This document shows, in pieces, positions 7,602 through 37,032 of a stretch of DNA of 39,822 nt. The position numbers and the translations under genes are program-made. Source of the stretch: Bacillus sp. ISL-55 (GTDB lineage: Bacteria; Bacillota; Bacilli; Bacillales; Cytobacillaceae). The notes beneath the pieces are model-generated. The model ran no database searches. It was not told the origin of the DNA and worked only from the letters and a program-made list of their open reading frames with translations. Location of the stretch: assembly GCF_018613155.1 (NCBI RefSeq), contig NZ_JAGGQU010000008.1, positions 156,101-195,922 on the forward strand, in the 5' to 3' direction. Numbering within the stretch: position 1 is the first letter of the stretch; the number at the start of each line of letters is the position of its first letter.

Positions 7602-7630
7602 AAGGAGGAGCTGGTTGCTTCTCCTTTTTA
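7602..7630 (+). terminator. Terminator of atoE
   Basis: AAGGAGGAGC (7602-7611) pairs with GCTTCTCCTT (7617-7626) with one G-T pair, then six T residues. The repeat element at 7632 starts immediately afterwards. Confidence 0.88.
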
Positions 7631-7631
7631 C

Positions 7632-7751
7632 TGGAAAAAATCATGGGTAATTTCCAGTTTGCGAATAAATGGTGGTTTTTTGCGAATAAACCAGCTGTTT
7701 TGCGAATAAACGAGTTTTTTTTGCGAATAAACTTCGATATTTGCGAATAAA
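7632..7751 (+). repeat. Post-terminator element: 25-base TGG..CCA inverted repeat plus five phased TTGCGAATAAA copies
   Basis: Bases 7632-7656 begin TGGAAA and end TTTCCA. TTGCGAATAAA then recurs at 7659, 7680, 7700, 7721 and 7741, a spacing of 21, 20, 21 and 20 bp. The intervening 9-10 bases differ. No coding potential is seen. Confidence 0.9.
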
Positions 7752-7811
7752 AACAATGCTATTCGAAAAAAATCATGAGTGTTGCCTATCAATAGCCCAA
7801 ATTCCGGTCAG

Positions 7812-10360: not shown

Positions 10361-10392
10361 GAGACCCAGCCGAAAATGGCTGGGTCTCTTTT
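10361..10392 (+). terminator. Terminator of argS
   Basis: GAGACCCAGCC (10361-10371) pairs perfectly with GGCTGGGTCTC (10378-10388), followed by four T residues. Confidence 0.93.
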
Positions 10393-10396
10393 GAAT

Positions 10397-10554
10397 TGGA
10401 AAAAGTACAGTGTAATTTCCAATTCGCTATAAAAAATTGATTTTCGCTATATAAACGATATTTTCGCTATAAAAAAGATTTTTTCGCTATATAAATAAAA
10501 TTTTCGCTATAAAATGAATTTTTTCGCTATAAAAATTGTTTTTTCGCTATAAAA
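10397..10554 (+). repeat. Post-terminator element: 25-base TGG..CCA inverted repeat plus seven TTCGCTATA copies at exact 20-bp period
   Basis: Bases 10397-10421 begin TGGAAA and end TTTCCA; pairing extends outward to AATTGGAAA / TTTCCAATT. TTCGCTAT then starts at 10423, 10443, 10463, 10483, 10503, 10523 and 10543, exactly 20 bp apart. The 10-11 bases between copies are AT-rich and variable. Confidence 0.93.
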
Positions 10555-10576
10555 TCGGATTTGGGCCCGGCGGGAA

Positions 10577-18038: not shown

Positions 18039-18095
18039 GAATTTTTCGTGAATCGTCCTTACATAAATTTTGTCTGGACGTGGGGAGGGTTAAGA

Positions 18096-19226
18096 ATGAA
18101 TCTGAGATTTACAGAAGAGCAGGAAATGATGCGCAAAATGGTGCGGGATTTCGCGCAAACCGAAATCGCTCCATTTGTTGAAAAAATGGAAGATGGCGAG
18201 TTCCCGAGGGAGATTTTAAAGAAGATGGGTGAGCTTGGCCTGATGGGAATCCCGGTACCTGAAGAATATGGCGGTTCGGAGATGGATTTCATCTCCTACA
18301 TCATCGCGATCCATGAAATATCAAAGGTCAGCGCCACGGTCGGCGTCATCCTTTCTGTCCATACTTCAGTCGGAACGAACCCGATCTTGTATTTTGGTAC
18401 AGAAGAGCAAAAGAAAAAATATGTACCTAAGCTGGCTGCAGGCGAATACCTCGGCGCATTCTGTCTGACAGAACCAAGTGCCGGCTCGGATGCTGCAAGC
18501 CTGAAAACAAGGGCCGTCAAAAACGATGGATACTATGTGTTGAACGGCTCGAAGGTGTTTATCACGAATGGCGGCGAAGCGGATGTGTATATCGTTTTCG
18601 CTTCTACTAATCCCGAAGCAGGTCCAAAAGGCGTTTCCGCTTTTATCGTCGAAAAAGACACACCGGGCTTCATCGTCGGCAAGGATGAGCACAAAATGGG
18701 CCTTTACGGCTCACGCACGGTCCAGCTGACATTTGAAGACATGAAGGTGCCAGAAGAACACCTGCTTGGCCAGGAAGGTGAAGGATTCAAGATCGCGATG
18801 AGCAACCTTGACTCTGGTCGTATCGGCATCGCCGCTCAGGCTCTTGGAATTGCTGAAGCTGCATTAGAAGCGGCGACTGACTACGCAAAAGAAAGAGTCC
18901 AGTTCGGCAAGCCAATCGCTGCCCAGCAAGGCGTCGGCTTCAAGCTGGCTGATATGGCAACATCGGTCGAAGCTGCGAAACTATTAATCTATCGCGCAGC
19001 ACAATTACGCTCAGAAGGACAAAAGTGCGGAATCGAAGCATCCATGGCAAAGCTGTTCACATCACGCACAGCAGTAGAAGTCACCACAGAAGCCATCCAG
19101 GTCTTTGGCGGCTACGGTTACACAAAAGACTATCCAGTCGAACGCTACTTCCGCGACGCCAAAGTAACCGAAATCTACGAGGGTACGAGCGAGATACAGA
19201 AGATTGTTATTAGTAAGCAGTTGTAA
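18096..19226 (+). CDS. Acyl-CoA dehydrogenase, short-chain (butyryl-CoA) type
   Basis: This FAD enzyme forms the alpha-beta double bond of acyl-CoA and passes electrons to ETF. The 376 residues include [14 protein letters not shown] (FAD and substrate loop), FITNGG, the [22 protein letters not shown] signature and the catalytic Glu362 in [16 protein letters not shown] lies 7 bases before the ATG; a frame open 16 codons earlier is not needed. It is clearly paralogous to the gene at 19750 but differs in many positions. Its place after thiolase and hbd suggests butyryl-CoA; branched substrates are possible given icmF nearby. Confidence 0.92.
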
Positions 19227-19235
19227 GCCTTTATT

Positions 19236-19640
19236 GTGACAGGTTTACCCTCGGAAGCCAGAAAGCTGTCAAGAAAAGCCCGGAATCGTGACAGGTTCGG
19301 GTGCGGAAGCCGAAAAGCTGTCAAGAAAAGCCCAGAATCGTGACAGGTTTGGATGCGGAAGCCGGAAAGCTGTCAAGAAAAGCCCGGAATCGTGACAGGT
19401 TTGGCAGTGAAAGCAGAAAAGCTGTCAAGAAAAACCCGGAATCGTGACAGGTTTGGCGTCGGAACCCGAAAAGCTGTCAAGAAAAGCCCGGAATCGTGAC
19501 AGGTTTGACAGTGGAAGCCGAAAAGCTGTCAAGAAAAGCCTGGAATCGTGACAGGTTTGAGTGTGGAAGCCAAAAAGCTGTCAAGAAAAGCCCGGAATCG
19601 TGACAGGTTTGGCTGCGGAAGCCGGAAAGCTGTCAAGATA
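19236..19640 (+). repeat. Tandem array of eight 52-bp units with inverted half-motifs
   Basis: GTGACAG starts at 19236 and recurs every 52 bp to 19600 (eight times). CTGTCA starts at 19266 and recurs every 52 bp to 19630 (eight times). The extended half-motifs TGACAGGTTT and AAAGCTGTCA are near-inverse and their centres alternate 27 and 25 bp. About 7 bases after each GACAGGTTT vary between units and the rest is nearly constant. This fills most of the 523-base gap between the two dehydrogenase genes. There is no terminator between the upstream stop codon and the first unit. Confidence 0.95.
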
Positions 19641-19749: not shown

Positions 19750-20889
19750 ATGAATTTTCGATTATCCGAAGAACATGAAATGATCCGAAAAATGGTCCGT
19801 GATTTTGCGAGGAATGAAGTGGCTCCTACAGCTGCAGAGCGTGATGAAGAGGAACGCTTTGACCGCGAGATTTTTGACAAGATGGCTGAACTTGGCCTGA
19901 CTGGAATTCCATGGCCGGAAGAGTACGGCGGAATTGGCTCCGACTATCTTGCATACTGCATCGCAGTTGAGGAACTGTCCCGTGTTTGTGCGTCGACAGG
20001 CGTTATGCTGTCCGCACACACCTCTCTTGCTGGCTGGCCGATCTTCAAGTTCGGAAACGAAGAGCAGAAGCAAAAATACCTGCGCCCGATGGCTGAAGGA
20101 AAGAGCATTGGCGCATACGGCCTGACTGAGCCAGGAAGCGGTTCGGATGCAGGTGCGATGAGAACGACGGCAAAAGAAGACGGAGATCATTATGTGCTTA
20201 ACGGATCAAAAATCTTCATCACAAATGGCGGCGTAGCGGATATCTATGTGGTATTCGCATTGACTGACCCGTCCAGCAAGCATAAGGGTACGACTGCATT
20301 CATCGTCGAAAGCGACTTCGCTGGATTCTCTGTCGGCAAGAAGGAGAAAAAGCTCGGCATCCGTTCATCTCCTACAACGGAAATCATTTTTGAAGATTGC
20401 CGAGTGCCAAAGGAAAACATCCTGGGCGAAGTTGGCGAAGGATTCAAAATCGCAATGATGACGCTTGATGGCGGCCGTAATGGAATCGCTGCACAAGCTG
20501 TCGGAATCGCACAGGGCGCTCTTGATGCTGCAGTAGATTATGCAAAAGAACGCCAGCAATTCGGCAAGCCAATCGCGGCGAACCAGGGCATTGGCTTCAA
20601 ACTGGCTGATATGGCAACATCTGTTGAGGCTTCAAGACTATTAACCTACCAGGCGGCATGGCTTGAGTCTGAAGGTCTTCCATACGGCAAGGAGTCTGCG
20701 ATGTCCAAACTGTTTGCCGGCGACACAGCAATGAAGGTCACAACTGAAGCTGTACAGGTATTCGGCGGCTACGGATACACGAAGGACTATCCGGTTGAAC
20801 GCTTCATGCGCGACGCGAAAATCACGCAAATCTATGAAGGAACACAGGAAATCCAGCGTCTGGTTATCTCCAGGATGCTGACGAAATAA
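19750..20889 (+). CDS. acdA: Acyl-CoA dehydrogenase AcdA
   Basis: This is the likely orthologue of B. subtilis AcdA: 379 residues, beginning [20 protein letters not shown] and ending [11 protein letters not shown], with the same [12 protein letters not shown] and [10 protein letters not shown] segments I recall from that protein. The FAD loop [12 protein letters not shown] and catalytic Glu363 (IYEGTQEIQ) are intact. GGAGG lies 8 bases before the ATG. It is separated from the preceding paralogue by the 52-bp array, so it may have its own promoter, though none is clear. The tetR and icmF genes follow with 12-base and overlapping junctions. Confidence 0.93.
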
Positions 20890-35696: not shown

Positions 35697-35746
35697 GATT
35701 ATAACTCTGTTTCGGATATGATTCAGGGCGGAAGGAGATGAAAAGA

Positions 35747-36900: not shown

Positions 36901-37032
36901 TGGGTTTAAAGGTAGGGGATTCCCAGATATTGGATGAACGTGCAATTACGTCATGTAATGGTGCAATTATGACAATGGACGGTGCAATTAATTTCTCCTA
37001 ACGTGCAATTATAACTCTTGAACGTGCAATTA
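36901..37032 (+). repeat. Post-terminator element: 25-base TGG..CCA inverted repeat plus five GTGCAATTA copies at exact 21-bp period
   Basis: Bases 36901-36925 begin TGGG and end CCCA. GTGCAATTA then starts at 36940, 36961, 36982, 37003 and 37024, exactly 21 bp apart, with variable sequence between. It fills most of the 304-base gap before the lipoprotein gene. Confidence 0.92.

Follow-up and report, generated by a model that had tools for sequence, protein, structure and literature searches.

The 39,822-nucleotide stretch of Bacillus sp. ISL-55 DNA analyzed here (the window) raises the question of what is served by a short motif, TTCGCTAT, that recurs at a rigid spacing directly behind the argS gene. 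The original prediction of seven TTCGCTAT copies with an exact 20-bp period, led by a TGG...CCA head that begins 4 bases beyond the T-run of the argS terminator, was borne out, and the locus could be resolved into three parts.

10361 to 10392, + strand: intrinsic terminator of argS, with its stem at 10361-10388 and its T-run at 10389-10392 (12 pairs, 8 of them G-C, in the terminator scan).
10395 to 10424, + strand: palindromic head, with core TGG-N19-CCA at 10397-10421 and arms AATTGGAAA and TTTCCAATT; head matrix score 31.3.
10423 to 10562, + strand: array of seven units TTCGCTATAAAAATNNNATT, with a period of exactly 20 bp.

The TTCGCTAT copies start at 10423, 10443, 10463, 10483, 10503, 10523 and 10543. 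The array is noncoding, lying between the stop of argS (identified by Pfam) and, downstream, the end of the uvdE frame, which converges with argS; overlap with a kept open frame was observed for only 2 of 72 arrays (in L009 and L104).

Arrays of this kind are not confined to argS. In 436 kb of the source genome, at least three copies of a 7-mer at 18-24-bp steps were present at 18 places (0 in one local shuffle), three of which have 18- or 24-bp steps and are not of this kind, and the triple motif gave 30 matches compared with 0 for the reversed pattern. The same array was found in 41 named stretches, 40 from Mesobacillus or strains of the source genus and one from a Phormidesmis MAG. Across the order, TTCGCGGA triples occurred in 20 of 397 genomes and 4 of 135 genera, the reversed control giving matches in one genome (7). 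A blind lag spectrum of repeated intergenic words in three genomes showed maxima at lags 20 and 21 and their multiples, as well as at 52. Matches at lags 20, 21 and 52 numbered 33, 30 and 132 in genome G000, 15, 15 and 104 in G020, and 9, 6 and 51 in G011; the G000 sample gave 2 matches at lag 19, and none was listed at lag 22. Lag 52 was the strongest intergenic repeat signal in the three genomes; G000 and G020 also gave side peaks at 13, 39 and 65.

Bacillus tandem repeats of constant length (20-21 or 52 nt) and variable sequence were described by Subirana and Messeguer in 2021 (PMC8161180), who counted 781 and 1886 arrays of the two lengths, with several families per species, and pointed out that 20-21 nt matches two helical turns. 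B. selenatarsenatis (30 arrays in the 20-21-nt range and 49 in the 51-53-nt range), B. boroniphilus and B. subterraneus, all now placed in Mesobacillus, the genus of soil bacteria to which the source genome belongs, are named there. The authors called the constant 20-21-nt repeats enigmatic and proposed a protein polymerizing on DNA, or small RNAs; no partner protein or defined ends were given. The argS array belongs to this constant-length class by its period, its several families per genome, its short conserved unit signal, its noncoding position (shared by most arrays) and its seven repeats, at least four being required. Furthermore, TCGCGG, the published signal for B. weihaiensis, is also one of the classes found here. 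Given that both appear in PMC8161180, neither the array class nor the helical idea is new, and the original statement that the element was not recognized from the literature stands for the composite and falls for the arrays. What is added here is the head, the fixed unit-1 junction, terminator adjacency, indel suppression and class replacement. The terms terminator, intergenic, hairpin, palindrom and downstream are absent from the text of PMC8161180, in which "inverted" is used once, in the introduction. No description of the composite head-plus-array element was found in the literature searched, outside which lies a 2020 J. Bacteriol. paper of the same authors, and relative to that literature the head is new.

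REP/BIME elements of enterobacteria resemble the present element in their many copies, location at gene 3' ends and palindromes, and BIME-2 bind gyrase; their palindromes are paired, whereas here a single palindrome carries a one-sided direct-repeat array in fixed phase. Plasmid iterons are ~20-bp direct repeats in phase that adjoin an inverted-repeat operator. The element described here is instead dispersed over tens of chromosomal sites, with no rep gene beside the window copies. An iteron identity was rejected on the basis of the housekeeping neighbors of the window elements (argS, uvdE, fatty acid transporter and thymidine kinase genes) and the number of distinct head sites, 22 to 35 per genome in six complete genomes. 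A CRISPR-like array was also rejected, the filler being A/T-rich with a consensus of its own and free only at about positions 13-18.

The head proved to be an integral part of the element. When TTCGCTAT arrays were aligned on unit 1, the head abutted that unit in 66 of 70; it was also present in 7/7 TCGCCAATA arrays, 6/7 TTCGCGGAAT arrays and, by strict count, 4/5 TTTGCGAATA arrays, the fifth carrying what by eye is a shortened form. Four motif classes thus have one head in common. Head plus TTYGC was detected in 20 of 21 genomes of the genus and in 0 of 172 other genomes of the family (20/193 overall; reversed-pattern control, 0), so that the head is restricted to the genus. Carrier genomes hold 5 to 34 copies, on both strands, and G012 has none.

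The arrays used for class and unit analysis were found by exact words, which favors conserved cores, and heads found by pattern or by matrix are free of that bias. Pattern alone fetched 86 oriented heads, from which 16 wrong-strand readings of near palindromes were dropped. Of the 70 kept, 67 lead into at least two units of the four classes; inspection of the other three by eye revealed two degenerate arrays and one wrong-strand reading. The best lag was 20 or 21 on the array side of 61/70 heads, compared with lag 20 on the other side of 2/70, and the side away from the array lacked periodicity in 67/70. In a matrix scan of five genomes, arrays follow heads scoring above 28, as read from the score list, and the reversed-sequence control gave one match above 15. 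One-sidedness extends to perfectly palindromic heads: in 20 fetched stretches, none was seen by eye to have arrays on both sides. Eighteen of these stretches, with the head on both strands, have a recognizable array on one side, the opposite side bearing no more than a short GCGAAC-like stub; the head of L247 is one-stranded, and L241 and L242 each hold two separate heads with converging arrays. The perfect palindromic heads of L230 (G006) and L229 (G007) are extended to GCGAACTGG...CCAGTTCGC around a CACGTG center, again with the array on one side only.

Unit spacing was examined in the arrays of the genus, the three from outside it (L070, L071 and L138) being left out of the step and unit statistics. 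Among 341 steps in TTCGCTAT arrays, 329 are 20 bp, 7 are 19 bp and 5 are 21 bp. Arrays hold 3 to 8 units, with six in 45 of 70. Steps differed in 23 of 306 orthologous unit pairs, compared with about 303 expected from the 0.271 gaps per mismatch of intergenic flanks; the resulting suppression of indels, roughly 13-fold, is approximate because orthologues recur in these pairs, as they do in the neighbor-gene, head-covariation, terminator and other-genera counts, and because large indels would escape the unit finder; its direction is plain. In 16 orthologous pairs, mismatch was 2.3% at core positions 2-8, 10.9% at positions 9-12 and 43.4% at filler positions 13-18, with 14.0% in the flanks; these 16 were kept from 26 equal-length pairs, the homology of units in the other 10 not being clearly above that of a one-unit shift. 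Core and spacing are under selection, and spacing is held while the filler drifts, as had been claimed. Absence of such arrays elsewhere and free drift of their spacing had been named in advance as findings that would speak for chance expansion of a simple repeat; neither was obtained, given the step differences and the predominance of exact 20-bp steps. Ordinary minisatellite drift without function is therefore disfavored and highly improbable: the variation from 3 to 8 copies and the decayed copies of some species, such as that of G002 at argS, are in keeping with drift, and they are outweighed by suppressed indels, a conserved core and an obligatory head.

The rigid spacing probably serves a protein lining up on DNA. 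That a protein reads one face of the helix, as was originally suggested, is plausible, and the accompanying claim of selection on helical phase was upheld as regards spacing. With dinucleotide twist values, the twist per 21-bp unit comes to about 719-722 degrees, on two turns, and that per 20-bp TTCGCTAT unit to about 688 degrees, some 32 short of the 720 of two turns, so that it is not established that the 20-bp class is in exact helical phase. Relative to intergenic windows, the modeled curvature of the arrays ranked between the 69th and 100th percentiles (class means; TTCGCTAT, 94th-95th), and predicted curvature is high by mean in all five classes. Under a shared unit permutation, 0.3-11% of arrangements were at least as curved in the A-tract model (class medians), and up to 36% (TCGCCAATA) in the wedge model. 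Predicted curvature is thus partly a by-product of any 20-bp repeat.

Such curvature might itself be the signal, with periodic bending rather than the motif being read at a gyrase, HU or plectoneme-tip site. Head plus six units span about 146 bp, near the length of a gyrase wrap. This explanation would also accommodate the predicted curvature of all five classes and the exchange of motif classes at one site described below. According to PMC6379681, E. coli gyrase favors G/C content that varies in a 10-bp phase, and enrichment is seen downstream of operons that are transcribed; in the same paper, however, the downstream gyrase follows transcription and not sequence. The difference between core and filler mismatch (2.3% versus 43%) and the recurrence of one motif across dozens of loci argue for sequence-specific reading, and curved DNA alone is decidedly unlikely to account for the element.

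An element read in RNA was considered next to one read in DNA. Here, a read-through transcript would offer a hairpin plus regularly spaced sites to an RNA-binding protein, or would act as a small-RNA sponge, small RNAs having been considered by Subirana and Messeguer (PMC8161180). The head can form a hairpin, arrays in same-direction neighborhoods are sense to the upstream gene in 21 cases and antisense in 11, and PMC8625621 records 52-nt satellites of Bacillus coagulans in RNA-seq. The window TTTGCGAATA array folds better than shuffles (z -3.3), whereas the target TTCGCTAT array (z +1.2) and the window GTGCAATTA array (z +1.3) fold no better; given this inconsistency across the three window arrays, array RNA structure was rejected. 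The compensatory change postulated at head positions 4 and 22 did not survive comparison of 83 distinct heads, in which the pair is A-T in 67, T-T in 7, G-T in 4, A-A in 3, T-A in 2 and never G-C (69 Watson-Crick pairs observed, 66.3 expected from the columns). Even the best pair, 4-30, just outside TGG/CCA, gave 48 Watson-Crick pairs compared with 39.2 expected, a value reached in 52 of 2000 permutations. The arms of the head hardly covary, which is neutral for a DNA site. Moreover, single-stranded RNA sites do not require exact spacing, and because many elements sit behind a terminator they are expected to be little transcribed. An RNA element is consequently unlikely, and, given that the target array has no excess of RNA folding and the arms hardly covary, the rigidly spaced element is likely to be read at the DNA level.

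Comparison of orthologous sites revealed that motif classes replace each other behind a fixed head. Seven classes were present in the G000 sample, and at least two coexist in each of seven genomes having more than one classed head. One series is provided by a second element of the window, located behind a short-chain fatty acid transporter gene (Pfam).

7604 to 7629, + strand: terminator-like hairpin and T-run, read from the sequence.
7630 to 7658, + strand: second head of the same family, with its core at 7632-7656; score 43.2.
7657 to 7790, + strand: array of TTTGCGAATAAA, with five exact units (7658-7751) and two degenerate ones, in steps of 20 and 21 bp.

The original prediction of the same plan at 7632 and 36901 held at 7632, where the head is that of argS and the motif is related (TTTGCGAATAA), with 20- and 21-bp steps mixed; it failed for the head at 36901. 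At the transporter site, one and the same head precedes TTTGCGAATA in G000, G003, G011, G014 and G001, and TTCGCGGAAT in the orthologous site of G008, G016, G002, G015, G007, G006, G013, G004 and G017. On the argS tree these classes require 5 changes, at least 2 of them forced by well supported branches, and the labels are not clustered (shuffled mean, 4.3 changes); recombination between species may have moved arrays. At a second site, TCGCCAATA is found in G000, G005 and G009, and TTCGCTAT takes its place in G011, G020 and three other strains; the flanks that were measured have 80-92% identity to the G000 copy, and the tree requires 2 changes. At a third, the class of L136 differs from that of L076, L123 and L145. 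L238 is a mosaic of one TTCGCCAA unit followed by TTCGCGG units.

Such exchange could reflect an array-building or mobile system for which the head is a recognition site and which adds or replaces units without benefit to the host. Replacement of whole arrays behind a kept head, with the changes on the argS tree just given, the presence of the head on one side only and the duplication of neighboring units in some arrays are all consistent with this. Elements nevertheless occupy orthologous sites across species, and different loci have unrelated fillers but conserved cores, when recent copying would give common fillers; we regard the explanation as quite improbable. A clean empty site with a target duplication was not found: G004 is without the argS element, its intergenic DNA there being too diverged.

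The element is placed preferentially at gene ends. A terminator-like site ends within 30 nt upstream, on the sense strand, of 51 of 83 heads; such a site was seen antisense on the far side of 16/83 heads and in 76 of 1408 background windows. Both neighbors were called for 56 arrays (one of them from the Phormidesmis MAG; 16 further arrays are without a called neighbor), and in 41 of these the head-side gene is directed toward the head (21 same-direction, 20 converging); 11/56 are antisense within same-direction gene pairs. TTCGCGG arrays in three other genera have a sense terminator within 50 nt upstream at 10 of 18 distinct loci and an antisense one on the far side at 2, and three or four of the 18 sites recur in several species. 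The Mesobacillus head was found at none of the 18 (best score -16, compared with a median of 38 for real heads), and terminator adjacency is therefore wider than the head. The origin-proximal half of six complete Mesobacillus genomes contains 144 of 168 heads (22/29, 32/35, 21/25, 29/33, 21/24 and 19/22), with the origin side set by dnaA, located with PF00308, and the enrichment uncorrected for core-gene distribution. Of 151 non-palindromic heads, 95 run with the fork, and with per-genome p values of 0.08 to 0.70 no strong replication polarity is indicated.

The best reading of these data, to which we give a little less than even confidence, is a DNA-level composite protein-binding site that would set a boundary at gene 3' ends. 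In this model, a putative dimeric protein would bind the imperfect palindrome AACTGGAAAAAATC-N6-AATTTCCAGTT and initiate cooperative occupation, on one side only, of 3 to 8 adjoining units (mostly 6) of 20-21 bp; each unit presents a conserved core together with phased A/T tracts on DNA predicted to be intrinsically curved. Located downstream of terminators in the sense orientation, such a complex would form a boundary, either as a backstop for read-through RNA polymerase or as a supercoil anchor. Against a boundary stand the 32/83 heads lacking a terminator in the scan and the 4/56 arrays between diverging genes, and, with four array classes sharing one head within a genome, either several readers or a single lenient reader would be required. 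A more specific proposal, possible though doubtful, is a nucleation-and-filament system in which the genus-specific palindrome seeds one-sided protein assembly and array specificity is exchanged wholesale while head, phase and place stay. If true, it would define a class of modular boundaries for transcription or topology in bacteria, and would account for the long-noted constant 20-21-nt repeats; bacteria would then possess a sequence-programmed boundary at gene ends. If no filament forms, a new copying mechanism is still required to account for the replacement of classes at fixed sites. With a defined head, start point, terminator context and measured constraint, these enigmatic repeats are open to a simple bait experiment.

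The array near 36901 belongs to a related class without the TGG-CCA head.

36922 to 36939, + strand: upstream word of the GTGCAATTA class (CCCAGATATTGGATGAAC), distinct from the TGG-CCA head.
36940 to 37032, + strand: array of five GTGCAATTA units, with a period of 21 bp.

The proposed head at 36901 was rejected because TGG-N19-CCA occurs 14 times across the window and the GTGCAATTA class has upstream words of its own, CCA..AT.T.GGATGA, which by eye abut unit 1 in 6 of 7 arrays; TGG-N19-CCA was absent within 130 bp of either of the two other GTGCAATTA arrays examined. The GTGCAATTA arrays of the window and of L025 also have AATAATTTTTCCAG-like DNA downstream in common.

Several further features of array structure were observed. 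In L024 (13271-13440), GGTCGATATA and CGCCAATAAA units are mixed, apparently on one 21-bp register. In TCGCCAATA arrays (L015 6845-6956, L104, L156 and L228-L232), two fillers, about ATC.GATTT and GTTGTGAA, tend to alternate, and the steps accordingly switch between 20 and 21 bp; many loci contain the second filler. Two genomes of another genus (g18) have long arrays with a 20-bp period and unrelated sequence, at L070 1153-1625 and L071 1387-1756, the former changing from TTAGTTGCGGATGGCGGGAA to another unit. At gathering level, Rfam detected in the whole window only an L31-Firmicutes ribosomal leader (RF03156), at 35705-35737 and away from the array. The window also contains 52-bp tandem arrays at 1-158 (3.0 copies) and at 19236-19638 (7.8 copies), the latter between the frames 18048-19226 and 19750-20889.
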